IMG/VR virus record: IMGVR_UViG_3300021139_000040 | Span: 1 to 40,698 of that record | Length of the DNA stretch: 40,698 nt | Direction: 5' to 3' (one strand) | From: a virus | Shown: in pieces, positions 20,643 to 40,474 of the stretch | Numbering within the stretch: position 1 is the stretch's first letter | How the letters are laid out: the number at the start of each line of letters is the position of its first letter | Translations under genes and position numbers: made by a program | Notes under the pieces: generated by a model | Database searches by the model: none | What the model saw: the letters and a program-made list of their open reading frames with translations, nothing else | Told to the model about the DNA's origin: nothing

Positions 20643-20657
20643 AACGAGGAAATAAAA

Positions 20658-20981: not shown

Positions 20982-20999
20982 TAGGACTCTCGAGCGAAT

Positions 21000-23498: not shown

Positions 23499-23500
23499 AA

Positions 23501-25554: not shown

Positions 25555-27570
25555 ATGGCACGATATAATACAGTCAGTACAACAAGCTCAGTATCAGGTG
25601 GTAATGTAATTACTACACCTAGTAGCGGCCTGTTGACTACACTTACTGGAACAGGTACTGTAACCGTACCTAACCCAGTTTATTATACCGGCCAAACTCA
25701 AACATTTTATAATAGCACTGGTAGTGCTATTACATTAGCTACACCAAGTGGTATATTTAACGGTCCAGGTTCAGGAGCTTCTTCTAATTTAAGTTTACCT
25801 GCTGGTTCTATTATTACAGTTGTTAGTGATGGTACAAATTATATTGTTGAATCTTGGTTAGGCGGAGCCATAGTTGTAAGCGGAACGTTAACAGCTTATG
25901 GAACAGTAGCTATGAATCCAAGCAATGCTAATGTAAGCATACAGCCTACTGGAACTGGCACGTTAAACATGAGCAGTGGTGCTACTGGCTCATTAGACAA
26001 TGTCAGCATTGGAACTACTACACAAGCTAGTGGTAAATTTACAACTCTTAGCTCAACTGGTGTTACTCAGGTAACAGCTGGTACATCAGTTACTTTAGGT
26101 ACTGCCGCAAGTGGAGCACTACAAGTTACAGGCGGCGTGGGTATTGGTGGTGGAATAACAGTAGGTAGCAGTGGTTATTTTGGTGGTAGTGTAGGAATAG
26201 GTATAACTAACCCATCATATCCTTTGGTTGTATCAAATTCTGGTGCCCAAGGTATTGAATTTAGTCCAACCGGCGGCATTAACAGTGGCGGATTCATTCA
26301 AGCATACAATAGATCTGGAGCGGCATATTTAGATTTAACATATTATGCTACTCAATATCACTTTTGGACGAACGGTAATGAGAAATTTACATTAGATTCT
26401 AGCGGTAACTTATCAATAAGCAATAAAGCTTCGAGTCCAACAAATAGTCAAAATCCCCCAGGTAGCTTATACTTTTACGGTCAGGGATGGAATACACTAA
26501 GTGGCTCAACACAATACCAAGGACAAATTAGCCTTGGCGGTGCTTACAGTGCTAGTACAGGTAGCGTAGAACCAGCAATTACGTTTAGCCTAGCTGGTAC
26601 AGGTAACAGTGGTTATAATGCTAGTGCCGGCCCGTCAACATTAACAGAGCGTGTGCGTATCAATAACTATGGTAACATTGGTGTTGGTACAACTACACCG
26701 CAAGTAACACTAGATATGGGTAGCAGAACTGATGCTATCTTATTACCAAGCGGAACATCAGCACAGCGACCTTCAGCAGTAGCAGGTATGATGCGTTATA
26801 ACTCAACCAGCGGTACAGCAGAAGTATATAGTCAAGGATCTTGGAACGCATTTGGTACGGTGGCTAACGGCTTAACAGCAACTACTCCTTTCACTAAATC
26901 ATCTGATATGGTTAACCAAAGTTCAAATGGTACATATTGGATTCAAACTAAAAATATGACTTCGGCACAACAGTATTATGTAGATTATACTAGTACTACA
27001 GGCGGGCCTTGGGTTAGAATTTTCTTAGCTAACACAGATAATTACAATCAAACTAGTTACTCATGGGACAATGCTCAAAGCAGTAACATGCTATTAGATA
27101 GCGCATATTTTATGTATGCGTTTGTTAATAGTTCAACGAATGCTTTAACATATCCTTGGGCATTTAGATTTAATGATAGTACTACACTAAATGGTAGTAG
27201 TGACGGTAATAAAAGTGCGTTCTTAAGTGGTCCTCCTATGGGCCACGGAGGATCTGGATCACCTTTAATTACTTACATGTATACTATTCGGTTAACAGAT
27301 AGCACAGTTTATTCAGGGTACTTACGAACAGGAGTAAGTAGTTTTGGATCGCTATGTGATGACGGTCGTAGTGGAATCTGGGGACAAATTTGTTTAAAAG
27401 CAGGCGGTAGTGGTGGCAGTGGTACCGGTAGTGGCGGTTATAGTGATTTCCCACATTTTAGTTCATTTGCTTATAGCGGAACAGACAATTGGGCGCAAAG
27501 TAACCAAAGTTATACAACAAACAGTTCAGATAGTAATCATAGATTTGGAGTATATTGTAAATTAGTATGA
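25555..27570 (+). CDS. Tail fibre 3 with fibrinogen-like tip
   Basis: A 671-residue fibre with the shared MARYN module at residues 1-105. Shaft repeats include NPSNANVSIQPTGTGTLNMS, VTLGTAASGALQVTGGVGIG and GIGITNPSYPLVVSN. Near residue 400 it has LPSGTSAQRPSAVAGMMRYN, the tip-joint motif also used by the two short fibres at 31673 and 31843. The C-terminus, about 455-671, has GTYWIQTKNMTSAQQYYVDY, WVRIFLANTDNYN and SFGSLCDDGRSGIWGQICLK. This resembles fibrinogen-C-terminal-like domains found on marine phage fibres, which are thought to bind surface glycans. No S74 domain is present. The last codons overlap the start of the thioredoxin-like gene. Confidence 0.8.
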   Translation: MARYNTVSTTSSVSGGNVITTPSSGLLTTLTGTGTVTVPNPVYYTGQTQTFYNSTGSAITLATPSGIFNGPGSGASSNLSLPAGSIITVVSDGTNYIVESWLGGAIVVSGTLTAYGTVAMNPSNANVSIQPTGTGTLNMSSGATGSLDNVSIGTTTQASGKFTTLSSTGVTQVTAGTSVTLGTAASGALQVTGGVGIGGGITVGSSGYFGGSVGIGITNPSYPLVVSNSGAQGIEFSPTGGINSGGFIQAYNRSGAAYLDLTYYATQYHFWTNGNEKFTLDSSGNLSISNKASSPTNSQNPPGSLYFYGQGWNTLSGSTQYQGQISLGGAYSASTGSVEPAITFSLAGTGNSGYNASAGPSTLTERVRINNYGNIGVGTTTPQVTLDMGSRTDAILLPSGTSAQRPSAVAGMMRYNSTSGTAEVYSQGSWNAFGTVANGLTATTPFTKSSDMVNQSSNGTYWIQTKNMTSAQQYYVDYTSTTGGPWVRIFLANTDNYNQTSYSWDNAQSSNMLLDSAYFMYAFVNSSTNALTYPWAFRFNDSTTLNGSSDGNKSAFLSGPPMGHGGSGSPLITYMYTIRLTDSTVYSGYLRTGVSSFGSLCDDGRSGIWGQICLKAGGSGGSGTGSGGYSDFPHFSSFAYSGTDNWAQSNQSYTTNSSDSNHRFGVYCKLV

Positions 27571-27881
27571 TAAACGATCTATTAAATCAACCAGGAATTA
27601 AATGCTTTGTACTAAGTAACAAAGAATGCCCCCATTGTGAGGAATGGATGCAAAATAATTTTGATACTTTTAAAAATCAATTTACTGATGTAACATGGCA
27701 TGTAATTGATTGCTATGAAGAACATCAAGCAGGCCGAATGCCATTTCCTCCGTTAGCAAGTCCGACATTTTATTTGTATAAAGATCCGCAAGATTTTCCT
27801 ATTATTAGTGCAGGTTTTTTACCAGAGCCAGAAATGACAATGAAGTTTAAAAGACTAGTAGAGGCCGTTAAGAATGACTGA
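27567..27881 (+). CDS. Thioredoxin-fold protein with CPHC motif
   Basis: A 104-residue single-domain protein. After a first beta strand (KCFVLSN) comes CPHC at residues 21-24 at the start of a helix. Near residues 65-67 is SPT followed by FYLYK, matching the cis-proline loop and strand of thioredoxin and glutaredoxin folds. CPHC is the active-site type of DsbA-like or glutaredoxin-like oxidoreductases. There is no signal peptide, so it would act in the cytoplasm. The start overlaps the fibre 3 stop (ATGATAA) and the end overlaps the next start, so the three genes are translationally coupled. A thiol oxidoreductase inside a fibre cassette may tune disulfides in cysteine-containing fibre tips; this is inference from position. 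Confidence 0.75.
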   Translation: MINDLLNQPGIKCFVLSNKECPHCEEWMQNNFDTFKNQFTDVTWHVIDCYEEHQAGRMPFPPLASPTFYLYKDPQDFPIISAGFLPEPEMTMKFKRLVEAVKND

Positions 27882-28160: not shown

Positions 28161-30191
28161 ATGGCACGATATAATACAATAAGTTCAACAAATTCAGTAA
28201 CAGGCGGTAGTACAATCACCACTCCTGCTAGCGGTTTGTTGACTACACTAACTGGATCAGGCACGGTAACAATACCTAATCCAGTATATTATACTGGGCA
28301 AAATCAAAGTTTTTATAATAGTACTGCTAGTGCTATAACATTGTCAACTCCAAGCGGAATATTTAATGGCCCAGGTGCTGGAGCATCTAGTACACTGTCG
28401 TTAGCTGCCGGAGCAATTGTCACAATAGCCAGTGATGGTACTAATTATGTTACACAAGGTTGGTTAGGTGGTGTTGCTATTGCAACATCTATCACTGCTA
28501 GTTCTGGTACTCTTAATAGTGTTAGTATAGGATCTACAACTCCGGGAACTGGAGCATTTACTACTTTATCTGCAACAAGTACAACAACATTAGCTGGAGG
28601 AAGCGCTAGCGGTATATTTACATTTAGTAGTAGTCAAACCAGTAATGCATCCAACAACGGTGCAGTTGTAATTACCGGAGGACTTGGAGTTGGTGGTTCT
28701 CAATATACTGGCGGAACAATTAACGGCAGTAACGGTATATATGTTGGTAAAAATTATTCAGGGCTTGGAGCAGGTAATGCTCTAGCAACATTTTACGGAG
28801 TAGACAGCGGTGTAAGTAATACTGGTATTAGTATTACAACAAAAGGTCCTACAAGTCTATATGATACTTCGTCTTATCCGTTACAAGTTTGGGTTAATGG
28901 TACTGCAACGGCTAGTTTTGTGGGCAATGGTTATCTTGGTTTAGGTACAACAAATCCTAGTGATTTGTTTACTATAGATAACAGTAGCGCAAGTAACACA
29001 ACTGGCATTACACTAGCAAGTAGTGGAACAACCGATGCTAGAATTTATGCTAACGGTAGTAATTTAGTATTCAATAGTTTAAGAACTAACCCAATATATT
29101 GGCAAATTAATAGTAGCACTCAAATGGCGTTAAGCGGTAGCGGTTATCTAGGCATTGGAACTACTAATCCCCAAGTACCTTTACAAATTAATGCAACTAA
29201 TACATCTAACACAGCAACTGGCGGCAGTCATTTAAGATTAGAAAATCCATCAGGAAGTCAAACACTGATAGGATTTACATTTAATGGAACAGCAAAAGGT
29301 GCGTTACGTGTTGATAGTTCGGGTAATGTAATTTTTGATTCGTTAGGCGATTACTATTTTAACTATGAATTAGGCGGAACATCGTTTAATTTTAGAAATG
29401 GTGCTACCGGTGTATTCCAAAGCATTTCAGGAACAACTGTAAACTTTCCAGGTGCATTACAATATGGTGGAAATACTGTATTAAGCACAAGTAACTATAC
29501 CAGTTATGTAACACAAGTATCTCCAATTCAAGTTGGTGGCTACAGTTATGCAACTACATCTAACAGAAATTCAATTAACACTATTGGTTCTTATGCATCG
29601 TATCCAGGAGGCAGCGGCGCACCGTCTACTTATGATTATACACTAGAAGTTACTGGTTCCGGTAGAGGCTGGCGTTTAGAAATGGATTGGATTGGAGCTC
29701 CGTCGCCCTATGTAAGCGCACTACGTGATTGCTGTCAAAACTGGTCAAGCTGGTATACTATTTCTGTAGCGGCAGCGTCTGATCGCAGAAGAAAAACTAA
29801 TATAGAACCAGTAACTGATCATAGACAAATTATATTTGGTTTAAATGCTACTCGTTATGATGTTGTGAACGAAGACGGAACGTTAGGAGATGTATCAGAC
29901 CAAGATCCAGATTTACGTGTAGAACGTCCAAAAGAAATTGGTTATATTGCACAAGATGCAATTAAAGTTGTTCCAGAAGTAGTTAAATTTAATCCAAGAC
30001 AAGATACACCAAACGAAGTGGGTTGGGCAAATGCTTACACAGTTGACTATGAAAGATTAGTACCTGTATTAACTGAAGCAACTAAAGAAATTTACACAGA
30101 TATGGATGCAGTTAAGGACATGATGTTGGCAATGCAAGCACAAATTGCCGCATTACAAGCAGAAGTTGCCGCATTGAAAGGAAAACAATAA
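28161..30191 (+). CDS. Tail fibre 4 with S74 chaperone
   Basis: A 676-residue fibre. Residues 1-105 are the shared MARYN module. The shaft shows GAVVITGGLGVGGSQYTGG and two GLGTTNP / GIGTTNPQVPLQI repeats. Residues about 450-538 (SINTIGSYASYPGG, then WRLEMDWIGAP, ending NWSSWYTI) resemble a pyocin-knob-type tip. Residues 540-676 are a Peptidase_S74 domain with Ser540 and Lys545 in SDRRRK, followed by IGYIAQDAIKVVPEVV. A C-terminal coiled coil rich in Ala, Gln and Leu should hold the chaperone trimer. Autocleavage is predicted before Ser540, leaving the knob at the mature tip. The stop overlaps the next start as TAATG. Confidence 0.85.
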   Translation: MARYNTISSTNSVTGGSTITTPASGLLTTLTGSGTVTIPNPVYYTGQNQSFYNSTASAITLSTPSGIFNGPGAGASSTLSLAAGAIVTIASDGTNYVTQGWLGGVAIATSITASSGTLNSVSIGSTTPGTGAFTTLSATSTTTLAGGSASGIFTFSSSQTSNASNNGAVVITGGLGVGGSQYTGGTINGSNGIYVGKNYSGLGAGNALATFYGVDSGVSNTGISITTKGPTSLYDTSSYPLQVWVNGTATASFVGNGYLGLGTTNPSDLFTIDNSSASNTTGITLASSGTTDARIYANGSNLVFNSLRTNPIYWQINSSTQMALSGSGYLGIGTTNPQVPLQINATNTSNTATGGSHLRLENPSGSQTLIGFTFNGTAKGALRVDSSGNVIFDSLGDYYFNYELGGTSFNFRNGATGVFQSISGTTVNFPGALQYGGNTVLSTSNYTSYVTQVSPIQVGGYSYATTSNRNSINTIGSYASYPGGSGAPSTYDYTLEVTGSGRGWRLEMDWIGAPSPYVSALRDCCQNWSSWYTISVAAASDRRRKTNIEPVTDHRQIIFGLNATRYDVVNEDGTLGDVSDQDPDLRVERPKEIGYIAQDAIKVVPEVVKFNPRQDTPNEVGWANAYTVDYERLVPVLTEATKEIYTDMDAVKDMMLAMQAQIAALQAEVAALKGKQ

Positions 30192-30394
30192 TGGCACTTA
30201 ATTATTTTGTTGAAGACTCATTGTATGATGAGAGAATGAATACTTGCAGGCAATGTCCAAGTTATGGAGCATTAGGTGTGTGTAGTGAATGTAAATGCGT
30301 AATGCCTGTTAAGGCTAAATTTGCACATTTTTACTGTCCTATTAAAAAATGGGACAGAGACTATTCTAAACTCGTAATAATCAAATCGGAATAA
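30191..30394 (+). CDS. Small six-cysteine zinc-ribbon-like protein
   Basis: A 67-residue protein with cysteines at 19, 22, 31, 34, 36 and 49. The spacing is C-x2-C-x8-C-x2-C-x-C, then MP, then CP and KKW. This predicts a small zinc-binding domain. The same spacing, with ECKC and CPxxKW conserved, forms the C-terminus of the 2OG oxygenase at 32652-33362. The pattern resembles small cysteine-rich phage and bacterial families of unknown function (DUF6171-like, from memory). The start overlaps the fibre 4 stop by one base, and fibre 5 begins 1 base after its stop, so it is embedded in the fibre operon. It could be an adaptor or a folding partner; no function is established. Confidence 0.7.
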   Translation: MALNYFVEDSLYDERMNTCRQCPSYGALGVCSECKCVMPVKAKFAHFYCPIKKWDRDYSKLVIIKSE

Positions 30395-30395
30395 T

Positions 30396-31673
30396 ATGGC
30401 ACGTTATAATTCAGTAAACGCAACGGGTTCAGTAGCAGGAGGTAGTACAATTACTACACCTAGCAGTGGTTTGCTGACCACATTAACTGGTAGCGGAACT
30501 GTAACTGTGCCAAATCCAGTTTACTATACTGGTCAGACACAATCATACTACAATTCAACTGGTAGTGCTATTACACTTAGTACACCTAGCGGTGTTATAA
30601 ATGGCCCTGGATTAGGCGGCGGATCAAGCACGTTATCTTTACCTACTGGATCAATTATAACATTGATTAGTGATGGAACAAATTATTTGACACAAGATTG
30701 GTTAGGCGGAAATGTTAGTGCTTCAACATTAAGTGCAACATCTTCAGTTAACCTAAGCCCAGGTACAGGATCGGTGACAATAAGTCCTAGTAGTGCTGGT
30801 ACAATTAATAATATGAGTATAGGTGCTAGTACAGCAAGTACAGGTGCATTTAGTACATTAAGTGCTACTGGAACAACCACTGTTACTGGCGGAACTGCGG
30901 TAACATTAGGAACAGCCGCAAGTGGAGCACTACAAGTAACAGGTGGTGTTGGTATAGGCGGCGGAATATACGCAGCCGGTCAAAGTAGTTTTGGAAACAA
31001 ACTAGGTATTGGAACAAATAGTCCAGGTATCGATTTAGATGTACAAGGTTCTGGCAGATTTTTAAATACTGGCGCGGCTACTAATGCTAGTACAGGAAAA
31101 GGATTAGAAATTCAATATGCAACTTCTGGGCGTACACAAGGTGAGGGTGCTTATTTAATTCCGTATGACAGAACTGGTTCTGCTTATAAACAATTTGTTA
31201 TTGATGCTAGTACGACAATTTTATCTATAAGCGGAACATCTAAAGTTACTGTTGACACAAATGGATATTTACTAGTAGGCTATACTTCTAGTCAAGGAAC
31301 ATATAACTTGCAAGTTAATGGTAATTTCTACCTTAGCGGATTAATTACAGAAGCATCTAGTATTGCATTAAAAGAAAATGTACAACCGATTGAAAATGCG
31401 TTGGATTTAATATTAGATCTAGTAGGTGTAACTTACGATAGACGCGATGGTAGTAAGAAAAATGAACCAGGATTGATTGCAGAAGAAGTTTATAAACGAG
31501 CACCTGCATTAGTTAGCCTTGATAATGATGGAAATCCAGCAGGTGTATTGTATACTAAATTAGGTCCTTACTTAATTGAAGCAATTAAAATGCTTAAAGA
31601 CGAAGTTGATGAATTAAAAAACAAAAAATCATTCTTAAACAAATTGTTTGATATGTTGAGAGGTAAAAAATAA
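30396..31673 (+). CDS. Tail fibre 5, short, with S74 chaperone
   Basis: A 425-residue fibre, the shortest with the shared MARYN module (residues 1-105). The shaft has SVTISPSSAGTINNMSIGAS and VTLGTAASGALQVTGGVGIG repeats, then a short insert near residues 220-300. The S74 domain starts at Ser321 with Lys326 (SSIALK), five residues apart as required, and continues PGLIAEEVYKRAPALV. It ends in a strongly charged helix with a basic tail. There is little room for a separate receptor domain, so the mature tip after cleavage would be only the last shaft segment. It may be a shorter, alternative receptor fibre. The last base of its stop is the first base of the next start. Confidence 0.85.
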   Translation: MARYNSVNATGSVAGGSTITTPSSGLLTTLTGSGTVTVPNPVYYTGQTQSYYNSTGSAITLSTPSGVINGPGLGGGSSTLSLPTGSIITLISDGTNYLTQDWLGGNVSASTLSATSSVNLSPGTGSVTISPSSAGTINNMSIGASTASTGAFSTLSATGTTTVTGGTAVTLGTAASGALQVTGGVGIGGGIYAAGQSSFGNKLGIGTNSPGIDLDVQGSGRFLNTGAATNASTGKGLEIQYATSGRTQGEGAYLIPYDRTGSAYKQFVIDASTTILSISGTSKVTVDTNGYLLVGYTSSQGTYNLQVNGNFYLSGLITEASSIALKENVQPIENALDLILDLVGVTYDRRDGSKKNEPGLIAEEVYKRAPALVSLDNDGNPAGVLYTKLGPYLIEAIKMLKDEVDELKNKKSFLNKLFDMLRGKK

Positions 31674-31843
31674 TGGCAACATTAGCAAGTTTAGTATGTA
31701 CAAATACCGATGCGGCAATAATGCCTCGTGGAAATAATACAACTGATCGTCCCACTCCGGTTGCTGGTATGGTTAGATATAACAATACAGATGGTAGAAT
31801 GGAATTTTATAACGGCAGTGCCTGGGTAATATTGGTGATATAA
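31673..31843 (+). CDS. Mini-fibre protein (56 residues)
   Basis: A short gene beginning MATLASLVCTNTDAAIMPRG and ending in NGSAWVILVI. It shares RPTPVAGMVRYN and the YNGSxW ending with the tip-joint motif of fibre 3 and of the next gene. The start overlaps the fibre 5 stop by one base, and its stop overlaps the next start by one base (TAATG on both sides). This argues for real translation by reinitiation. The following gene also starts MATLA and continues through the same motif, so this looks like a truncated or minimal copy of that gene's N-terminus. It could be a tip cap, or a remnant of a duplicated fibre. Confidence 0.6.
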   Translation: MATLASLVCTNTDAAIMPRGNNTTDRPTPVAGMVRYNNTDGRMEFYNGSAWVILVI

Positions 31844-32652
31844 TGGCAACACTAGCAGGATTAACAGTCAACGGCACGGGAAGTATTCAATTACCGACCG
31901 GAACTACGGCTCAACGTCCTAGTAGTCCAGTTGCTGGCATGATTCGTTATAATACATCTTGGGGTGGAATTGAACACTACAACGGAACACAATGGGTACA
32001 AGGTATTGGATCTAGTGCTAGTACAGCGGCATCGTCTGGTAAAGCAATTTACAATGCGTTGCCTAGTGCCCCAAGCGGTATCTACTGGTTAAAAACGTCA
32101 GGTGGCACGGCTTTCCAAGCATACGTGGCAATGGATTACGGCGGTGGCTGGGTTAATTTGCATACAAATTACGGTAGCGGAGCATATACAAACCCTCTGA
32201 CAACAGCAGGCTGGGCCAATCAAACAAGTGGTGCAAGCGGTAACGGCTTCGGGCCATGGGCGCCATTGAGTGCAAGTTATCAAACAAACGCAGAAGCAAA
32301 CAGTTATGGTTGCCCAAGTAGTGGATATAGAAGTCAAGTGTTTGCCAACGCAAGTATATTAACAGATTTAGGAGCAACCCAAGTTAGATGGAGTTGTAGC
32401 GTACAAAATTTAAATAACGTTACTTGTGGATATTTGAATGCCAACCAATCTAATTTTACAATTATTAGCGGTACTACTAATATGATTACTGTTTGCAATA
32501 ACCCTCCAAACCAATACAGCCAGCTTAATCCAGGAAGTTTTACATTTATTGCATACGCTACTATCAGCGCAAGCGGTAATGCCTTATTCGAAACATGGAC
32601 CGCTTGTAGCGGTACTATGGATGTGGCCTTAAACTATTTGATGGTGAGATAA
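31843..32652 (+). CDS. Short fibre with fibrinogen-like tip
   Basis: A 269-residue protein lacking the MARYN module. It starts MATLAGLTVNGTGSIQLPTG and reaches AQRPSSPVAGMIRYN by about residue 35, the same tip-joint motif used by fibre 3. Residues about 70-269 begin SGIYWLKTSGGTAFQAYVAM and GGGWVNLHTNYGSG, which resembles the start of a fibrinogen-like domain. The later part has several cysteines (for example NVTCGYLNANQ and ACSGTMDVALNYL) that may pair. Without its own docking module it may attach to another fibre as a tip. Its stop overlaps the start of the oxygenase that follows. Confidence 0.7.
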   Translation: MATLAGLTVNGTGSIQLPTGTTAQRPSSPVAGMIRYNTSWGGIEHYNGTQWVQGIGSSASTAASSGKAIYNALPSAPSGIYWLKTSGGTAFQAYVAMDYGGGWVNLHTNYGSGAYTNPLTTAGWANQTSGASGNGFGPWAPLSASYQTNAEANSYGCPSSGYRSQVFANASILTDLGATQVRWSCSVQNLNNVTCGYLNANQSNFTIISGTTNMITVCNNPPNQYSQLNPGSFTFIAYATISASGNALFETWTACSGTMDVALNYLMVR

Positions 32653-33362
32653 TGATTAAAGATTTAAACTTAGCAGGCAACAGAGTACTAGTAATGACAA
32701 TCGATCAATCTCTAGTTGATAAAATTGCCGCTCATGCCGAACAAGAATATGAAAAAAATCTTGAAGTAAGTCAAGGTTATCCAGAAACTTCGGATGTATA
32801 TTTGTTTAAAAGTCCAACAAGTTTAACTAATCCTCCAACTGGTCCTGGTTATCAGTGGTTTCCAGTAGACTCTAGTGATGTTGAAGAATTTAAAAACACC
32901 ATGTTGTCTGCGATGCAAGCACAGTTTAATGCAGAATACAAAATTAGCGAATGCTGGTTTTTACTCCAAACCAATGAAGAGTGGATTGATAATCCAGTAC
33001 ATCAGCATCTTACAGCAGATTGGGTAGCAGTGGCATACATTAAAGTTGATGGCGATGGCATAGAATTTAGCGATGATGGCGGAAATACAGAAGTATATCA
33101 TCCAACAGCAGGAACAGTATTAGTATTTCCGGCAATGGCCAAACACAGACCAATGCCTAATACAAGCAATAGTCATAGGATCAGCCTTAATTTAGAATTA
33201 AATGCAGAAACAGAGCCAGAAACAGACTTGCAAAAGTCGCGCATGGACATTTGTAATAGTTGTGATAGATTAAGTAGTTTAAAATTTTGCGGAGAATGCA
33301 AGTGTTTTATGCCATTTAAAACTCGACTAATTTCTAGTGTATGTCCTTTGCAAAAATGGTAA
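32652..33362 (+). CDS. 2OG-Fe(II) oxygenase-like protein fused to zinc ribbon
   Basis: A 236-residue two-domain protein. Residues about 1-185 look like a double-stranded beta-helix 2-oxoglutarate/Fe(II) oxygenase of the putative 2OG-FeII_Oxy_5 type. Candidate metal ligands are His117 and/or His119 (NPVHQHLTADW) with distal His165 in FPAMAKHRPMP, and Arg176 is a candidate 2-oxoglutarate anchor (HRISLNLEL). Residues 199-236 form a zinc-ribbon-like tail with cysteines 201, 204, 213, 216, 218 and 231, the same spacing as the stand-alone 30191-30394 product. The fusion suggests the ribbon guides the enzyme to its substrate. The gene overlaps the upstream fibre stop by one base. The oxygenase call is by motif; the substrate is unknown, and a fibre protein is a reasonable guess. 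Confidence 0.65.
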   Translation: MIKDLNLAGNRVLVMTIDQSLVDKIAAHAEQEYEKNLEVSQGYPETSDVYLFKSPTSLTNPPTGPGYQWFPVDSSDVEEFKNTMLSAMQAQFNAEYKISECWFLLQTNEEWIDNPVHQHLTADWVAVAYIKVDGDGIEFSDDGGNTEVYHPTAGTVLVFPAMAKHRPMPNTSNSHRISLNLELNAETEPETDLQKSRMDICNSCDRLSSLKFCGECKCFMPFKTRLISSVCPLQKW

Positions 33363-33374
33363 AATTAAAATAAG

Positions 33375-33381
33375 TTAAATA
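33375..33381 (+). promoter_or_regulatory. TTAAATA box before fibre 6
   Basis: TTAAATA lies in the 23-base AT-only gap after the zinc-ribbon oxygenase and ends 4 bases before the fibre 6 ATG. With the flanking GTTAAATATA and the first ~30 coding bases it repeats the fibre 3 upstream region. Confidence 0.3.
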
Positions 33382-33385
33382 TAAG

Positions 33386-34963
33386 ATGGCACGATATAAT
33401 ACAGTCAGTACAACCGGATCAGTAGCAGGTGGCAATTCAATTGCTACACCTTATAGCGGATTACTGACTACATTAACCGGATCGGGTACTGTTACACTTC
33501 CTAATCCTACTTACTATGCTGGTCAAACACAAACTTATTACAATTCAACCGGAGCTAATATTGTATTAAACACACCTAGTGGTGTGTTTAATGGCCCGGG
33601 TGCAAGTAGTTCTAGCAACATTACTTTACCAGCAGGTTCAATAATCACAATAAGCAGTGATGCAACTAATTATCTTGTTGAAAGTTGGTTAGGTGGAAAT
33701 AGTGTTGCAGTAACGTTATCTGCATCTGGTTCTGTAACTTTTAATCCATCAAATAGTAGTATAAGTTTACAACCAACAGGAACTGGTACAGTTAATATAG
33801 CACCTGGAACTGCTGGTACTATAGATAACATGGCTATTGGCGCAACTACTAGATCAACTGGTGCATTTACTACATTAACAGCTAATGGTGCAACAACACT
33901 AACTAGTAATGGTGCCGCAAGTGCTTATAATACATCCGGTGCCGCATTGTTAGTCGGCGGCGGCGTTGGTATTGCAGGAGCGGTTTATACAAATAGCACA
34001 GCTACATTTGCCAATACACTTACTGTAAGTTCGGGCGGAGCAGTTGTAACTGGCAATTCTTCTGTTACTGGTACATTACAAACTACTGGATTGAATACTA
34101 TTACAGTTACATCTAGCACTGCTACACTAGCAGGAACACATATTCAATTGACCAATCCTAGCGGATCACAGATAGTAATTGGTGCTAATTTTAATAGTGT
34201 GAATAAAGGTAGTTTAAGATTTGACAATTCGGGTAATGTTGTCTTAAATGCCACTAGCGGTAATTTTTATTTTAATAACGATACTAGTCCAACCAGTATA
34301 AATTTAGTTAATGGTAATACTACATTCTTATCTACTAGTGGAAGTAATGGTATAAGTGTTCCAGGCACAGTTTCTGCTGGTACATTTAGTGGATCAGGTG
34401 CAAGTTTAACTGGAACTGGTAGTAGCTTTACTGCTGGAGCAGTAACTAACGGTGTTTATACTAACACTGGTAACACATTTACACAATTCGGCGGTGTTAA
34501 CAGTAATTATGCTAAGTCGGGATCAATTTTAATTCCAATGCAGTTGCACAACTCAGCAACAGGCCAAGGCTTAGGCGTTCCAACAACTATCAGTCCAGGT
34601 TCAGAACAATATTTTAATGCACTTGGAAATATGAGTTGGCCGCAAGGTAGTCGTGTTCGTCTGTGGTTAGTTGTTAACGTACAAGGTTCACCTGATATAA
34701 CTGAAAATACTACATTAAATATACACATTAATGCAATCGGATCTGCCACACCATACGATAGCGGATTTAAACTAAGTAATTGGACAGTATATGGTAGAGA
34801 TTGGGGCGATAATTATCAAGATCATAATATTAGTCCAATGTTTTATATGGGAAATAATAACTACGGTTTATATATTAAAAATACCGGAAGTACTAATTAT
34901 GTTCAAATATTTGGATACGGCTTTATAGCCGAACCTCCAGATGGTTATGTATCTTCAGGCTAA
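33386..34963 (+). CDS. Tail fibre 6 with unassigned beta tip
   Basis: A 525-residue fibre, last of the six with the shared MARYN module (residues 1-105). The shaft carries NPSNSSISLQPTGTGTVNIA and GAALLVGGGVGIAGAVY repeats. There is no S74 domain. Residues about 375-525 form a distinct beta-rich tip containing SRVRLWLVVNVQGSPD, WTVYGRDWGDNYQDHNISP and a final YVQIFGYGFIAEP strand. I do not recognise a ligand. The upstream gap contains a TTAAATA box, and the first ~30 coding bases closely match the start of fibre 3, as if the two shared a recent recombination. A strong ribosome-binding site follows for the next gene. Confidence 0.8.
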   Translation: MARYNTVSTTGSVAGGNSIATPYSGLLTTLTGSGTVTLPNPTYYAGQTQTYYNSTGANIVLNTPSGVFNGPGASSSSNITLPAGSIITISSDATNYLVESWLGGNSVAVTLSASGSVTFNPSNSSISLQPTGTGTVNIAPGTAGTIDNMAIGATTRSTGAFTTLTANGATTLTSNGAASAYNTSGAALLVGGGVGIAGAVYTNSTATFANTLTVSSGGAVVTGNSSVTGTLQTTGLNTITVTSSTATLAGTHIQLTNPSGSQIVIGANFNSVNKGSLRFDNSGNVVLNATSGNFYFNNDTSPTSINLVNGNTTFLSTSGSNGISVPGTVSAGTFSGSGASLTGTGSSFTAGAVTNGVYTNTGNTFTQFGGVNSNYAKSGSILIPMQLHNSATGQGLGVPTTISPGSEQYFNALGNMSWPQGSRVRLWLVVNVQGSPDITENTTLNIHINAIGSATPYDSGFKLSNWTVYGRDWGDNYQDHNISPMFYMGNNNYGLYIKNTGSTNYVQIFGYGFIAEPPDGYVSSG

Positions 34964-34970
34964 GTAGTAT

Positions 34971-34977
34971 AGGAGGA
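34971..34977 (+). promoter_or_regulatory. Strong ribosome-binding site (AGGAGGA)
   Basis: AGGAGGA lies 5 bases before the ATG of the P4H-like oxygenase. It is the clearest Shine-Dalgarno sequence in the fibre/enzyme region and fixes the start at 34983. Most neighbouring genes instead rely on overlaps or weak sites. Confidence 0.75.
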
Positions 34978-34982
34978 TTCCT

Positions 34983-35522
34983 ATGCTATTAAACCAACTA
35001 ATACTACAGATACCAAATGCTGTAGATTCTACTTTTTGTAAAAAACATATTGATTTTGTAGAACAACAAAATTATCCTATAACAACTAATACAAAAAATT
35101 TTGTCCAACGCCCTTTAGAAGGTGTTGATCTTTCAGAAGTTGCCATTTCTTTACAAAATATGCTGGGATATTATCAACAGACTGTGCCTGTTTTTAATTT
35201 CTATGCGACGCCAGTCAAATTAGAAACACCCGTAGTTAAAAAATATCAGGCAGGAGGTAAAGATTATTTTGGAGAACACATGGATAACTGTGATCACATT
35301 ACCTCTACAAGATTTATGGCATTTCTTATCTATTTGAATGATGTAGAAGAGGGCGGAGAAACAGTATTTCCACAGTTAGGTATAAGTATTAAACCAAAAG
35401 CGGGAACATCAGTGATATTCCCTCCGTATTGGATGTTCAAACATAGGGCAGAAGCCCCTGTAAGTAACAATAAATATATCATGACAACATATTTTAGATA
35501 TGCTTCTACAGAAGGAGAATAA
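34983..35522 (+). CDS. Prolyl-4-hydroxylase-like 2OG-Fe(II) oxygenase
   Basis: A 179-residue cytoplasmic protein covering one double-stranded beta-helix domain. The catalytic set is clear: His99-x-Asp101 (FGEHMDNC), distal His154 (MFKHRAEAP) and Lys164 for 2-oxoglutarate binding, ten residues after the histidine as in prolyl-4-hydroxylases. The motifs YLNDVEEGGETVFP and IKPKAGTSVIFPP are typical of the P4H family. The family hydroxylates a substrate carbon, often a prolyl residue, using O2 and 2-oxoglutarate. AGGAGGA lies 5 bases before the ATG and is the strongest ribosome-binding site in this part of the window. The position right after the fibre array suggests fibre or host-protein hydroxylation; the substrate is not proven. 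Confidence 0.85.
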   Translation: MLLNQLILQIPNAVDSTFCKKHIDFVEQQNYPITTNTKNFVQRPLEGVDLSEVAISLQNMLGYYQQTVPVFNFYATPVKLETPVVKKYQAGGKDYFGEHMDNCDHITSTRFMAFLIYLNDVEEGGETVFPQLGISIKPKAGTSVIFPPYWMFKHRAEAPVSNNKYIMTTYFRYASTEGE

Positions 35523-35525
35523 ACA

Positions 35526-35858
35526 ATGGCACTGACACAGAACTTTGAAAGCGATTTTGGTACAACACATCCAAACGCATACTACAGAATTATAGCAATA
35601 AGAATGGATCACAATACAGATATTCGAGCAGTAGATCTCGAAGGAAACCCCTTACCTGCTCCAATTAAACGCTATAGTGATATACATGCAGATGTAGCAA
35701 TTTGGAATGATCAAACATCTTATAATAATGGTGCTAAACCTATTGGAGGATTTACTCATAGAATGACATATCAACCAACACAAGGTAATGTGCTTGCAGA
35801 ATTGTACACTGATATGAAAGTTAAGCTCGAATTTATGGCAACTGCCAAAGATGCATAA
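35526..35858 (+). CDS. Small phage protein of unknown function
   Basis: A 110-residue protein between two oxygenase genes, starting 3 bases after the first. The N-terminus (FESDFGTTHPNAYYRIIAIR) and the later beta strands (THRMTYQPTQG) resemble small proteins found beside tail genes in many phages. Those are usually labelled hypothetical or structural. There are no cysteines and no clear catalytic motif; the three scattered histidines are not arranged as a metal site I can identify. An AAGGAGAA sequence at the end of the previous gene serves as ribosome-binding site. It may be a minor fibre component or a substrate or partner of the adjacent oxygenases. Confidence 0.5.
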   Translation: MALTQNFESDFGTTHPNAYYRIIAIRMDHNTDIRAVDLEGNPLPAPIKRYSDIHADVAIWNDQTSYNNGAKPIGGFTHRMTYQPTQGNVLAELYTDMKVKLEFMATAKDA

Positions 35859-35867
35859 TTATTAACA

Positions 35868-36443
35868 GTGAATTCCACTATAGTATCCCAAGTATCGTTA
35901 ACTACTTCCGAAATAGATTTTATAAAAACTAAAATCTTAGGATATGCACTGCCTTGGCATAGAAATCCTGCACAAACTTATACAGAACCCGACGAAAAAT
36001 TTAAAGGGCGAGCCGGAAATACATTTTGGTTTAGTCATCCATTAATGGATCGAGCAGAAAAGCCATACTGGGATCCTGATCAGTCAGGTAAAATAGTAGA
36101 TCCATCTTTATATTCGTTTTTCCATGTTATTTTTTCCAGGCATTTAAGAGAACAGAACATAGAATATAAAACAATCCTACGATCTAGTCTTAACCTAGTA
36201 GTACATAGCAACTATGAATTTACAGTTCCTCATGTAGATCATTTTTTCCCTCACTGGAATTGGGTCATGTATCTTAATACTGTAGAAAATGCTCCTACAG
36301 TTTTGTTTGACGAAAATATGGAAATTATAGAATCTGTTCAAGCAGAAGAATTTAAAAGTGTTATATTTCCAGGAGTAACACACGCCCACAAATTCCCTCC
36401 AATTAATCAAGATCGATGTGTTTGTGTCTTTACGTTTGCGTAA
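35868..36443 (+). CDS. 2OG-Fe(II) oxygenase-like protein
   Basis: A 191-residue protein starting at GTG; the next in-frame ATG is too far inside (near residue 60) to keep the fold. His122-x-Asp124 sits in TVPHVDHFFPHW, the distal His172 or His174 in GVTHAHKFPP, and Arg183 in DRCVCVFTF is the candidate 2-oxoglutarate anchor. This order and spacing fit the 2OG-Fe(II) oxygenase superfamily, with LYLN-type (VMYLNTVENAP) and FPGV core strands. It is only distantly similar to the P4H-like enzyme at 34983. The 3' end runs 14 bases into the end of the convergent halogenase gene, leaving no room for a normal terminator between them. Confidence 0.75.
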   Translation: MNSTIVSQVSLTTSEIDFIKTKILGYALPWHRNPAQTYTEPDEKFKGRAGNTFWFSHPLMDRAEKPYWDPDQSGKIVDPSLYSFFHVIFSRHLREQNIEYKTILRSSLNLVVHSNYEFTVPHVDHFFPHWNWVMYLNTVENAPTVLFDENMEIIESVQAEEFKSVIFPGVTHAHKFPPINQDRCVCVFTFA

Positions 36444-37908
36444 TTAAATTAATATAATTTCTATGATCATCAAACATAGGAATTATTTTACTCCACGATT
36501 CTTTTATCAAATCCAAAGTATTATTAGATTGTTGTGTTGCTTGATAAAATTCTAATTCATTTTTAGCAATATTTTTATCAAGCAATTCTAAACCGTCTAA
36601 GACATTTAGATATAGAACACTATTAACAGTTCTACTTAGTGTCATAAAATCTAAATCTCTAGGAATTTTATACTTAACAGCATCTAATAAATTAGCAGTA
36701 TTAGAAGATATTTTATCATTCCATCGATCTATCCAAAACTGTTCTTTGCGTTTAGTTCTATAATGTATTACAATGAAATCTCTAAAAGAATCATACATAT
36801 CTCCTATGTATTGATTATATTTTTCATAATTATAATCCGTTAAGGTATATTCTTCAAAAAATACTTTAAGTTGCTCTAATGTAGAATGTATGCTAGTTGC
36901 TTCTAAAGGTTCTAAAAATGCTGCCGATAATCCAACTGATAGATAATTTTTAAATAGAAACTTATCAGAACGTCCACTATTAAATTTAATTTGTTTAATA
37001 GGAGAAATTTTACGACCTAATTTTTCTTCTAATTCTTGCTGTGCTTGATCAAAGTCTATATATTTGTCACAAAAAACATAACCGCACCCTAGTTTATCTT
37101 GTTTAGGAATTTGCCACATCCATCCAGCTGATAGTGCCTGAGCAAGTGTATAATTAGGCATACTATTATTTTCATAATCTAATAAAAATGGCAAAGCAGA
37201 ATTTACTGGCAAATATTCCTGGTAACTAATCCAATTTATTCCTAATTTGTTAGCAATAACTTTTGCAAATCCGCTAGCATCTATTACAAAATCTACAAAA
37301 AATTTTTCATTATTTTTTAATACTAATGCTGAAATATTTCCATTATTATCTTGCTCTATATCAACTATTTGATCATCAATAGAACTAACATTATTTTGCA
37401 AGCAACATTTTTTAAAATATTTTCCAACTTTGTGTCCGTCAAAATGATAGCTATAAGTTAAAAATTTTGTTAATTGTTCAGGTTTACTGAATTTATGCAA
37501 CGGCATTAGTTGTCCGTTAAGTGTATTATTACCTATTTTTTCTCCACGAGATAATACCTCATTAACAAAATAATTAAAACTTTTATTTTTTGGCAACGGA
37601 CTTACTACACTACGAACGTCATCTAATGGACCAAAATAACTATGATCTTGTTCAAACCAGTCTTGATGCTTAATTCCTAATTTAAAAGTAGCACTGGTTT
37701 CTTTGATAAAATCTTTTTCGTTAATACCCAACATACCTGTTTCTAAAAAATTTTTAAATAAACCTGTACTTCCTTCTCCAGCACCTATTATTCCAATTTG
37801 ACTAGGTTCGAAAACAGTTATATTATAATCTTTTCCAAGATAATGTCGAGCAAAAATAGCTGATATCCAGCCAGCAGTACCGCCACCAATGATTGCAATC
37901 TCTTTCAT
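36430..37908 (-). CDS. Flavin-dependent (tryptophan-type) halogenase
   Basis: A 492-residue protein near the usual 500-540 of the family. Residues 8-13 (GGGTAG) open the FAD-binding fold. Lys76 in ATFKLGIKH corresponds to the catalytic lysine (Lys79 in PrnA/RebH) that relays hypochlorous acid. Residues 263-268 read WMWQIP, the WxWxIP signature of flavin halogenases. EPLEATSIH near 333-341 carries the glutamate (Glu336) equivalent to the second active-site acid. Such enzymes halogenate indoles, phenols or pyrroles and need FADH2 from a separate reductase; no reductase is in the window. The gene starts 1 base after the carbamoyltransferase, so it is last in the minus-strand operon. Related genes are known in some marine T4-like phages; the substrate is unknown. 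Confidence 0.9.
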   Translation of the reverse strand: MKEIAIIGGGTAGWISAIFARHYLGKDYNITVFEPSQIGIIGAGEGSTGLFKNFLETGMLGINEKDFIKETSATFKLGIKHQDWFEQDHSYFGPLDDVRSVVSPLPKNKSFNYFVNEVLSRGEKIGNNTLNGQLMPLHKFSKPEQLTKFLTYSYHFDGHKVGKYFKKCCLQNNVSSIDDQIVDIEQDNNGNISALVLKNNEKFFVDFVIDASGFAKVIANKLGINWISYQEYLPVNSALPFLLDYENNSMPNYTLAQALSAGWMWQIPKQDKLGCGYVFCDKYIDFDQAQQELEEKLGRKISPIKQIKFNSGRSDKFLFKNYLSVGLSAAFLEPLEATSIHSTLEQLKVFFEEYTLTDYNYEKYNQYIGDMYDSFRDFIVIHYRTKRKEQFWIDRWNDKISSNTANLLDAVKYKIPRDLDFMTLSRTVNSVLYLNVLDGLELLDKNIAKNELEFYQATQQSNNTLDLIKESWSKIIPMFDDHRNYINLITQT

Positions 37909-37909
37909 A

Positions 37910-39439
37910 TTAATATTTTAAAAAATATTCATTGCCAATAAACACAGAATCTAGTGCAGTAGTGGCCAATAAATCTTTGGCAACTTCTGGATAACCAGCT
38001 AATGGTTTTCCTGCTAGATTTAAACTAGTGTTAAGTAATATAGGACAGCCTGTTAAATTATAAAATTCTGTTAATAACATTTTAAATACAGGATTTTTAT
38101 CGTCTACTGTTTGCACTCTGCAAGTACCATCTACGTGTGTTATAGCAGGATAGTTATTTGATTTAACTGATGCAGTATATAACATAAAATCATCATCCCA
38201 AGCTAGATCAAAATATTCAGATGCATATTCTTTTAATACGCTTGCTCCGAAAGGTCTGTAATATTCTCGATTTTTAATTCCATTTATTATATCTTTACCA
38301 TTTGCAAGTCTAGGATCCATTAGAATACTTCGATTGCCTAATGCTCTGGGCCCGGCTTCTCCCTTATCTTGATACCATCCAACTGTTTTTCCTTGTGCTA
38401 AAAATTCTGCGGCCTTTTTAATTGCTTGCATAGATGGCATTGCATTAGGTGGAGTATCGGATTGTATATAGGGAAAATTTGATAACTTAAACGGAGGCAA
38501 ATTATTTTTAATTCTTAACCATTCTAAGGCACCTAAACTTAATCCTTCATCGCCAGCATGTGGAGGAATAATTAAATTTTTAAAATGCTTTTTAAGTTCA
38601 GTATTCCAAATAACATTTTGTGCAACTCCGCCTGAATAGCTAATAACATCCGTTTTACTAGCATACTTTTTAAAAAGATCAATTAACACATTTTCCATGT
38701 GTTTATGTACAGTTTTAATCCAGTCTTGATGTGAACTAGTATCTTGACTACGTTTATAGTTATACCATCTTGCAATAGAAAAGATATCGTTTATGCAAGA
38801 GTAATCAAATTGTTGTAGATATCTTAGATATGCTTCATCTATAGTACCATAACTTTGCAACCCCATAAGTTTTCCAGGTAGATCATTGGAAATTTTAGCT
38901 TTGATTCCTAATATTGATGCGGAAGACATCATAGATCCGCCAATGGATCCGTTAGTTGCAAGACCTCTGTCTATAAGTTTATCGTTTTTAAATATACTCC
39001 ACGATCTGTGATCCCCGACTCCATCTATTACTACGCATAAGTCAGGTTTAGAATCAGTTAACATCCATGTACTAAGTGAATGGGCATAATGATGCCCTAT
39101 ATAATATATATTTTTATTTGGAATATAGCTATTAAAAACATTGATATTGGGTTCTAATTTAACTACATTAGTTTCTCCCAATAATACTTTTGTTATTTCG
39201 GGAGGTAAATTGTTTAAATCATAAAATGTTTCTGCATGGAAATCAAAAATAATTTCGTCTATGTCTTTTAAATCGATATTCCATAACTGTTTAATTTCAT
39301 ATATCCATGACCATTTATTATCTATTGCAAATCTTTTATCTTGTTTAATGCGTTCTAATTTTACATAATGAACTTGCTCACCGTCAAAATAAGCAATACT
39401 TCCATCGTGTCTGGGTAAAGATACTGATAATAATTTCAT
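37910..39439 (-). CDS. O-carbamoyltransferase (NodU/TobZ-type)
   Basis: A 509-residue protein with both domains of the family. The N-terminal Kae1-like part has HHYAH at 116-120 (metal ligands), VVIDGVGD at 136-143, PGKLMGLQSYG at 188-198, SGGVAQN at 269-275 and HAGDEGLSLGA at 294-304. The C-terminal part has GPRALGNRSI at 363-372, REYYRPFGASV at 391-401 and LLNTSLN near 477. The enzyme uses carbamoyl phosphate and ATP to place a carbamoyl group on a hydroxyl, classically on sugars or antibiotics. It is slightly shorter than many bacterial members (about 550-600). It begins 1 base after the upstream oxygenase, which could make the hydroxyl it modifies; that pairing is inference. Confidence 0.9.
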   Translation of the reverse strand: MKLLSVSLPRHDGSIAYFDGEQVHYVKLERIKQDKRFAIDNKWSWIYEIKQLWNIDLKDIDEIIFDFHAETFYDLNNLPPEITKVLLGETNVVKLEPNINVFNSYIPNKNIYYIGHHYAHSLSTWMLTDSKPDLCVVIDGVGDHRSWSIFKNDKLIDRGLATNGSIGGSMMSSASILGIKAKISNDLPGKLMGLQSYGTIDEAYLRYLQQFDYSCINDIFSIARWYNYKRSQDTSSHQDWIKTVHKHMENVLIDLFKKYASKTDVISYSGGVAQNVIWNTELKKHFKNLIIPPHAGDEGLSLGALEWLRIKNNLPPFKLSNFPYIQSDTPPNAMPSMQAIKKAAEFLAQGKTVGWYQDKGEAGPRALGNRSILMDPRLANGKDIINGIKNREYYRPFGASVLKEYASEYFDLAWDDDFMLYTASVKSNNYPAITHVDGTCRVQTVDDKNPVFKMLLTEFYNLTGCPILLNTSLNLAGKPLAGYPEVAKDLLATTALDSVFIGNEYFLKY

Positions 39440-39440
39440 G

Positions 39441-40013
39441 TTACCATGTCCAAACGACAGCAGAGTATCGTGTGCCTTTAGTTATTTCATTTATTGTGTG
39501 AGGATATAAAAATGCGCTAGGCCATATAATAATATCACCTTTATCTAATTTAAATGTAGATTCGAATGGTGTGCCTTTCCAAAAAACTAATTCTCCTCCG
39601 GAATAGTTTTCGTTAAAATTAGTAATAATAGACAATACTGGTATTCCGCGTTTTTCTCCCTCGAACAAGGAATATATATGGTCGTAATGATTTCTGCAAT
39701 ATTGCCCTACTTCGTATTTGTTAAGTCTGGGCAAACTTATACCATTTGCTAATGCTTTGTTTTTCAATCCTACTTTTTGATGATATACTGTAAGTGCTTT
39801 AAATAAGCACCCTGCAAATTCTTCAGACAACTCGTCTTCAGCCCAATCTAAAACACTAAATTCTTTTTGATCATTGCTATAAGGTTGACTAGTGTATTCG
39901 GCCCAACCGTGAGGTTTCCAATTAGGCGAATTTTTAAACTTGCTGATAATATTATCGCACAATGTATTGGGCAGACCGTTGCCGAAGTGTAGTATGAAAT
40001 TACTTAGATTCAT
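39441..40013 (-). CDS. 2OG-Fe(II) oxygenase (prolyl-hydroxylase-like)
   Basis: A 190-residue single-domain enzyme. The iron ligands are His109-x-Asp111 (CRNHYDHI) and His172 (LYPHTINE). Arg182 is ten residues later and should bind the 2-oxoglutarate carboxylate. NFNENYSGGELVFW and KLDKGDIIIWP are typical core strands, and SGGEL is shared with P4H and PiuC-type proteins. It is the first of three tightly packed genes (1-base gaps) with the carbamoyltransferase and halogenase, so the three products probably act on the same target. It differs clearly from the three plus-strand oxygenases of the window. Substrate unknown. Confidence 0.85.
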   Translation of the reverse strand: MNLSNFILHFGNGLPNTLCDNIISKFKNSPNWKPHGWAEYTSQPYSNDQKEFSVLDWAEDELSEEFAGCLFKALTVYHQKVGLKNKALANGISLPRLNKYEVGQYCRNHYDHIYSLFEGEKRGIPVLSIITNFNENYSGGELVFWKGTPFESTFKLDKGDIIIWPSAFLYPHTINEITKGTRYSAVVWTW

Positions 40014-40024
40014 ACTAGATTATA

Positions 40025-40474
40025 CTAGATTAAATCTACTAAGTCAAATACAGTTTGAAGTTTTGTGCGAATTGTTTTGCTCGAAAAACTATTACGCAAT
40101 CCTTGATGTAATGGTTTTGGGGCACGGTCTATTGTAGCCCAGCACCACCCATTATGCTCATTGCTTAGATATGGAATGAATTCTTCTTCTATCACACACA
40201 AATAAGTGTGAAAATTAAACACCTTGTCATTGCTGACAAAAGTTTCAAGAGGAATTGTTTTGATTATTTCAGGACAAGGACCAATTTCTTCGTTGATTTC
40301 TCTCACTAGACCTTGCCAAGGAGTTTCGCCTTGTATGTTAGTGCCGCCAACTAAGCCCCAAGTACCTTCATGTTTACCATGAGCTTTTTGTAACAGTAAG
40401 AATCGTCGTGTAGATTTAGCGTAGAACAATGCTCCGCTACACACTATCTGTTCTGTTACAATTCTATTCTCCAT
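40025..40474 (-). CDS. Nudix hydrolase
   Basis: A 149-residue Nudix-fold protein. The Nudix box at residues 44-66 is complete: G-x5-E50-x7-R58-E59-x-x-E62-E63-x-G65, with GGTNIQGE at its start and REINEEIGP at its end. These acidic residues bind the divalent metal that drives hydrolysis of nucleoside diphosphates linked to another group. LLLQKAHGKHEGTWGLVGG before the box is typical of NDP-sugar or NTP-acting members, but the substrate cannot be fixed from this. Its first 19 bases overlap the end of the upstream structural gene, and 11 bases separate it from the oxygenase. It could recycle nucleotide intermediates or serve as a general phage nucleotide-pool enzyme. Confidence 0.9.
   Translation of the reverse strand: MENRIVTEQIVCSGALFYAKSTRRFLLLQKAHGKHEGTWGLVGGTNIQGETPWQGLVREINEEIGPCPEIIKTIPLETFVSNDKVFNFHTYLCVIEEEFIPYLSNEHNGWCWATIDRAPKPLHQGLRNSFSSKTIRTKLQTVFDLVDLI

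Follow-up and report, generated by a model that had tools for sequence, protein, structure and literature searches.

A probable exchangeable cassette for oxidative tailoring in the host-recognition region of a T4-like phage

The DNA considered here is IMG/VR record IMGVR_UViG_3300021139_000040, a virus sequence of 40.7 kb that was analysed whole (positions 1-40698, hereafter the window). Beside an array of fibre genes whose products share an N-terminus beginning with the residues MARYN, four genes, here called P1 to P4, encode divergent 2-oxoglutarate-Fe(II) (2OG) oxygenases with predicted catalytic turnover. The same stretch also contains genes for a flavin-dependent halogenase family protein and an O-carbamoyltransferase, both absent from the initial annotation. 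Taken together, the genes of this block very probably form a cassette for oxidative tailoring that is exchangeable and lies in the region by which this T4-like phage recognises its host (we place the identity of the genes plus the cassette behaviour at about 0.9).

Four divergent 2OG oxygenases

The four open reading frames (ORFs) were found where the initial annotation had placed them (Table 1), and its proposal that all of them are 2OG-Fe(II) oxygenases is borne out by family assignments, profile convergence, conserved ligands and fold or profile matches. That annotation was based on the ligand motif, whose residues are indeed conserved across relatives, but the motif by itself is weak evidence: its loose form (HxD/E/H...H...R/K) is carried by 177 of 569 other ORFs of 150-260 aa, and because this amounts to 31% of the controls, recognition by motif only was rejected as evidence. 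In Pfam and PHROG searches, P1 matched PF13759 (E 1.7e-8) and phrog_81 (3e-18), P2 matched PF13640 (2OG-FeII_Oxy_3; 8e-13) and phrog_61 (1.5e-35), and P4 matched the same two families as P2 (1.8e-12 and 7e-28, respectively); P3 had no Pfam match, and a match to phrog_274 (3.6e-20) is its only family placement. Iterative profiles seeded separately with each of the four proteins converged on one common set of 292-301 proteins.

Alignments with divergent relatives revealed invariant H117, H119 and H165 and a nearly invariant R176 in P1; invariant H99, H154 and K164 in P2, in which D101 is not invariant; invariant H122, D124, H172 and R183 in P3; and invariant H109, D111 and H172 in P4, with R182 nearly so. 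The HxD/E...H iron-ligand arrangement of the superfamily is thus present in the P3 and P4 families and, by its two histidines, in the P2 family, the P1 family having HxH...H instead, and the 2OG-binding Arg or Lys lies about 10 residues past the distal His in all four (R176, K164, R183 and R182). The double-stranded beta-helix fold was recovered for P1 and P3 by comparison of structure models, made from alignments of the window and IMG/VR loci only, with 2OG oxygenase structures, and for P2 and P4 by profile matches to solved 2OG enzymes. The P3 model (predicted local distance difference test, pLDDT, 86.7) matches 2OG oxygenases including P. putida prolyl 4-hydroxylase (P4H) and PHD2, its best Protein Data Bank (PDB) match being 6n1f (2.7e-7); a PDB sequence search gave no noteworthy match for P3. 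The P1 profile was closest to two uncharacterised Roseobacter-group structures (E 2e-21), that of P4 to PKHD hydroxylases (3dkq, E 4e-19) and that of P2 to the Bacillus-type prolyl 4-hydroxylase 3itq (E 7e-18); on this profile similarity P2 is prolyl-4-hydroxylase-like and may act on peptidyl-proline.

Two further assignments were discarded. P4 is not a YbiX/PiuC ortholog, given that its score with NCBIfam PRK05467 (55.9 bits) is below the equivalog cut-off of 143, and only the superfamily is shared. For P2 and P4, PADLOC returned nothing beyond the generic CRISPR-associated 2OG model, and the NUDIX hydrolase gene at the right edge of the block matched only a candidate model; we did not take these as defence. 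No relatives of P1 were found in isolates by tblastn.

Relatives of P3 carry the name DNA endonuclease V. A T4-type DenV pyrimidine-dimer glycosylase was rejected for P3, since Pfam and PDB sequence searches gave no DenV match and the fold is that of a 2OG oxygenase; because, in addition, 13 of 19 P3 relatives match PF13640, the name is not supported for them either. Proteins so labelled in many cyanophage records fall in the 2OG set, for instance L096:18386-18982 (P-SSM2 138386-138982), and P-SSM2 PSSM2_169, labelled ferrochelatase, is a 2OG protein resembling P4. The PHROG and RefSeq names of phrog_274 or denV genes therefore look wrong, and the phrog_274 name conceals many oxygenases in public genomes and skews auxiliary-gene counts.

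The zinc-ribbon-like DUF6171/phrog_13558 domain is fused to P1, stands alone between two fibres of the window, and is encoded by small genes beside or within the 2OG clusters of other phages (W03 198214-198417, G009 55082, G012 30859 and G019 5742). It is possibly a partner domain.

Exchange of a fibre tip together with an oxygenase

Comparison with record G001, which forms one strain type with G002 and G003 (both carry the G001 type), revealed 97-98% identity over 20150-24807 and 33369-40170. Between these stretches, the replacements in G001 span from inside one MARYN fibre gene to the start of the next. In place of 30861-33368, G001 has a different tip, an unrelated 2OG gene of PKHD type and one small ORF, and P2, P3, the halogenase, the carbamoyltransferase and P4 are 99-100% identical in the two phages. 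The breakpoints lie in or beside repeated MARYN sequence, the 5' ends of the MARYN genes being direct repeats (a 300-nt family in five copies and a shorter core of 105-132 nt in six). At the other side of the block, record G005 has 97% identity through the NUDIX gene; homology ends at 40026 and a different enzyme set follows. The MARYN repeats appear suitable for recombination, and we infer that recombination between them, as well as at the NUDIX edge, would swap blocks.

Homologues of the fibre-like ORF that begins at 31843 and of P1 (39% and 42% identity, respectively) abut in G027 as well, a contig that lacks MARYN genes and whose ORF at 7145-8539 was read by eye as a gp23-like capsid protein. 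A search for other relatives of this fibre-like ORF gave one weak extra locus only. A short reading frame at 31674-31842 (MATLASLV...RPTPVAGMVRYN...) resembles the N-terminus of the fibre-like ORF and is probably left over from an earlier duplication or exchange of a tip.

Linkage to MARYN fibres and distribution in isolates

In four MARYN-fibre records longer than 90 kb, a distance of 20 kb or less from a MARYN gene was found for 29 of 40 oxygenases and 14 of 15 halogenases (6.7 and 2.4 expected), counts that were reached in none of 5000 circular shifts used as null. The survey of co-occurrence with MARYN fibres that had been recommended is therefore positive, and this enrichment, along with the exchange of P1 with a fibre tip, upholds the earlier idea of a dedicated oxidative-modification block tied to these fibres. 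Gene-order maps identified a recurring slot in MARYN-fibre phages, bounded by the MARYN fibre region on one side and by the NUDIX gene (85-99% amino acid identity in its ten best matches from MARYN records) on the other, in which 2OG, halogenase, carbamoyltransferase, phrog_7084 and JmjC genes occur in varying combinations.

The MARYN N-terminus had no match in sequenced isolates. In seven isolates 34 of 122 oxygenases have a fibre-like gene within 5 kb, where 21.4 would be expected (p 0.03), a weak excess, and proximity was significant alone in 1 of 11 records; because fibre-like genes were defined by length and composition, these isolate figures are approximate. In HTVC008M four annotated oxygenases form a run about 2.5 kb from fibre genes. 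Homologues lying far from fibres and linked to nucleotide metabolism, which the initial annotation had considered damaging to its proposal, do exist in part, as cyanophage relatives of P2 and P3 are often beside uvsX/gp41 or gp44, and a P4 relative is just upstream of gp62, near dam.

The statement that T4-like marine phages commonly carry single oxygenases turned out to be an understatement. Profiles derived from the window detected 25 in P-SSM2, 23 in S-SSM7, and 20 each in HTVC008M and P-RSM6, which is not a random sample because the isolates were chosen for having relatives. Independently, S-SCSM1 has been reported to carry 24 2OG genes (PMC9602691) and S-CREM1 ten (PMC9964418). Nor are four oxygenases within 8 kb exceptional, since many records hold 4-9 in such a distance. 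Such abundance, at 20-25 copies per genome with many in replication regions, together with the weak fibre proximity in isolates, would fit the 2OG genes being general auxiliary metabolic genes (2-oxoglutarate draining, nitrogen signalling, DNA repair) that sit beside fibres in a hypervariable insertion hotspot; 2OG/NtcA modulation was proposed by Sullivan et al. 2010 (PMC3037559), and the fibres are known to lie in a hypervariable island (PMC7029224). This explanation, which we regard as improbable, leaves several features unaccounted for: the copies are strongly divergent, they are tightly linked to halogenases and concentrated beside MARYN fibres, and P1 is fused to a zinc domain.

Halogenase, carbamoyltransferase and other partner genes

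The halogenase gene product has the features of the flavin-dependent family (GxGxxG, WxWxIP, and the catalytic Lys and Glu), its GGGTAGW and WMWQIP motifs, K76 and E333/E336 being invariant in alignment A8, and its PDB matches include VirX1. It is assigned to this family, and halogenation is predicted. Among related phage halogenase paralogues WxWxIP is retained in only 34 of 67, and many phage PF04820 paralogues may for this reason not be halogenases. Up to five PF04820 paralogues were seen in one record.

The halogenase family is the strongest partner of the 2OG genes: 59 of 61 halogenases are within three genes of one (p 2.5e-30), and in records longer than 90 kb the figure is 21 of 22, against 4.7 expected from circular shifts. 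When 80 virus loci were sampled separately, chosen by halogenase alone, a 2OG gene lay within three genes of 133 of the 171 halogenases; 34 of these loci have at least four 2OG genes, accompanied by a fibre-like gene in 27, NUDIX in 20 and phrog_7084 in 20.

Two other families were observed next to 2OG genes. Cluster 9/phrog_7084 (e.g. L109:14141-14953) comprises proteins of about 250 aa with a conserved K.CPG...W.D motif; 25 of its 26 copies adjoin 2OG genes, and up to three copies are consecutive. HTVC008M 56808-57449 (phrog_2954) and the related cluster 20 make up a family of about 212 aa labelled ferrochelatase, all 11 counted copies of which have a 2OG gene no more than three genes away; its match to phrog_3531 is with the N-terminal half, the C-terminal half of phrog_3531 being 2OG-like.

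The carbamoyltransferase has TobZ, GdmN and the novobiocin enzyme among its PDB matches. Phage carbamoyltransferases acting on 5-hydroxymethylcytosine are known, and a NUDIX enzyme, as well as dam in P-SSM2, is found near such genes, so one may ask whether the enzymes modify nucleic acid, by 2OG base hydroxylation followed by carbamoylation as in hydroxymethylcytosine carbamoyltransferase systems. We consider this very unlikely, given that no base-modification, thymidylate-synthase-like or kinase genes were seen in the window and that the profiles of P2 and P4 are much closer to protein hydroxylases than to Tet/AlkB enzymes.

Organization of the window

The plus strand of the window carries a run of giant tail protein genes and six MARYN fibre genes, with small genes between them (Table 1). 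The fibres share an N-terminus of about 105 residues, with 63-76% identity to that of the first fibre. P1-P3 belong to the same tightly spaced run as the fibres, with gaps of -8 to +23 nt except for 169 nt before 31843, and the P1 start overlaps the stop of the preceding fibre-like ORF (TAATG); in view of these small gaps and this overlap, P1-P3 are probably produced along with the fibres. The T4 late-promoter octamer TATAAATA does not occur in the window (8.2 copies expected), and because of this absence the transcription units are drawn from gene spacing only. ATAAATA occurs twice in the window against 22.9 expected, and depletion extends to other MARYN records (3 against 12.4 in G009, 0 against 6.1 in G012 and 4 against 14.8 in G022). 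This pattern suggests a phage that uses a T4-type late promoter, with avoidance of stray copies.

Table 1. Features of the window discussed in the text
Feature	Coordinates	Strand	Remarks
MARYN fibre 1	21000..23498	+	C-terminal S74 chaperone
MARYN fibre 2	23501..25258	+	
MARYN fibre 3	25555..27570	+	
MARYN fibre 4	28161..30191	+	S74
Stand-alone DUF6171/phrog_13558 zinc-ribbon-like protein	30191..30394	+	Between two fibres; same domain as in the P1 tail
MARYN fibre 5	30396..31673	+	S74; tip unlike that of strain G001
Exchanged segment (fibre-5 tip, fibre-like ORF and P1)	30861..33368	+	Different in G001; flanks 93-98% identical DNA
Fibre-like protein, partner ORF of P1	31843..32652	+	GIYWLK...GGGWVNL stretch; 39% identical gene directly before the G027 P1 homologue
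P1	32652..33362	+	2OG-FeII_Oxy_5 type, HxH...H...R; C-terminal DUF6171/phrog_13558 zinc-ribbon-like domain (residues ~188-236)
MARYN fibre 6	33386..34963	+	Directly upstream of P2
P2	34983..35522	+	Prolyl-4-hydroxylase-like 2OG-Fe(II) oxygenase, HxD...H...K
110-aa ORF between P2 and P3	35526..35858	+	Without Pfam/PHROG match
P3	35868..36443	+	2OG-Fe(II) oxygenase, phrog_274 group
Flavin-dependent (tryptophan) halogenase family protein	36430..37908	-	PF04820 (E 6e-94); WMWQIP
NodU/TobZ/GdmN-type O-carbamoyltransferase	37910..39439	-	PF16861 and PF02543
P4	39441..40013	-	2OG-Fe(II) oxygenase, PKHD/PiuC-like, PF13640
NUDIX hydrolase	40025..40474	-	Conserved right edge of the variable slot; PF00293

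The 110-aa ORF between P2 and P3 has relatives only in G001-G003 and in none of the other records compared. A 104-aa ORF between fibres (27567-27881), with CPHC and an SPTFYLY stretch, resembles by eye a thioredoxin/glutaredoxin fold, and no convincing family match was found for it.

Possible functions of the block

We favour a reading in which the cassette serves the fibres. P1-P3 would be produced late together with the fibres and would hydroxylate side chains of fibre or receptor-binding proteins, and the halogenase and carbamoyltransferase could add further marks on aromatic residues or on the new hydroxyls; such marks may alter the receptor contact, folding or stability of the tip. Fibre hydroxylation is plausible, and the whole of this reading, cassette and modification of fibres included, is given a probability of about 0.35. 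Most of the solved structures nearest to P2, P3 and P4 are of protein hydroxylases, and the P4H of PBCV-1 and L230 of mimivirus are precedents for viral hydroxylation of structural proteins.

Several observations weigh against it. Sugars and small molecules are the usual substrates of the carbamoyltransferase and halogenase families, and our literature search found no hydroxylated phage fibre. The activity of P1 is less certain because its HxH ligand set departs from the classical HxD. In isolates many oxygenase relatives lie among replication genes, and a rule that oxygenases are directly downstream of fibre-like genes had to be abandoned (3 of 149 versus 35 of 362, if anything a depletion), P1 and P2 of the window being exceptions to this lack of enrichment. 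Moreover, the swap of tip and oxygenase is one event, and since everything between MARYN repeats moves, it need not mean functional pairing. A modular receptor-binding system, with tips travelling with the hydroxylases, halogenases and carbamoyltransferase that would modify them and MARYN repeats swapping tip and enzyme as a unit, is rather doubtful in our estimation.

Almost as likely as fibre modification is that the block modifies the host, either decorating envelope or capsular polysaccharide or making a halogenated or carbamoylated metabolite, with the purpose of blocking competing phages or supporting the infected host; its place beside fibres would then follow because a modified receptor must match the receptor used. 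The relatives of the carbamoyltransferase act on sugars and antibiotics, and S-SSM7, which we take to be close to S-SSM6a, has the cluster order of S-SSM6a at 101-108 kb. For that S-SSM6a cluster, Iyer et al. 2021 proposed polysaccharide decoration or a secondary metabolite (PMC7824862), and pelagiphage host-recognition clusters hold glycosyltransferases alongside fibres (PMC7029224). On the other hand, Pfam and PHROG scans of the window proteins near the block revealed neither glycosyltransferases nor nucleotide-sugar enzymes, HAD phosphatases, methylases or biosynthetic scaffold enzymes. P1-P3 belong to the fibre run and are probably late, and therefore late for exclusion, and protein hydroxylases are the nearest matches of P2, P3 and P4.

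Dozens of 2OG oxygenases are found in phages of abundant aquatic bacteria, and this locus narrows the question of their substrate to two candidates, the fibre or the receptor it meets. If the fibres are modified, this would represent a new layer of phage host-range chemistry, and an oxygenase exchanged with a fibre tip may help to tune the encounter of phage and host.

Comparison with known systems

PBCV-1 P4H and mimivirus L230 are, like the window enzymes, 2OG enzymes encoded by viruses; their substrates are structural proteins of the virus or collagen-like ones, but they belong to viruses of eukaryotes, and the Pro/Lys-rich or collagen-like sequence that they act on was not seen in the fibre translations of the window. 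The marine viral halogenase VirX1 (PDB 6qgm; Gkotsi et al. 2019) has family and motifs in common with the window halogenase, although the two are distant (phmmer 3e-39, weaker than many bacterial Trp halogenases).

In S-SSM6a, Iyer et al. 2021 (PMC7824862) described a 10-gene cluster that has a halogenase and a cupin alongside carbamoyltransferases and several 2OG enzymes. Like the window, the cyanophage "second gene cluster" of these authors brings together a carbamoyltransferase, a flavin halogenase and several 2OG oxygenases in a T4-like phage, whereas its HemK-like methylase, HAD phosphatases and cupin were not matched among the scanned window proteins, although the window may cut the cluster. 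Unlike it, the present block is intermingled with MARYN fibres, and its variation arises through exchange at the fibre repeats and at the NUDIX edge. The pelagimyophage host recognition cluster (PMC7029224) is likewise a large hypervariable island of tail fibres and enzymes in the structural region, but its conspicuous enzymes are glycosyltransferases, while those of the window are oxygenases, a halogenase and a carbamoyltransferase between MARYN fibres and the NUDIX gene. S-SCSM1 (PMC9602691), S-CREM1 (PMC9964418) and HTVC023P-type phages (PMC9599517) also have many divergent PF13640/PF13759-type 2OG genes per phage; the available text of these reports treats them as metabolic and mentions neither a fibre-repeat-bounded slot nor tip exchange. 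The combination of carbamoyltransferase, halogenase and 2OG genes is thus already known, as are 2OG expansions, and what appears to be new is the repeat-bounded slot of fibres and enzymes with the joint exchange, in one event, of a tip and its neighbouring oxygenase.

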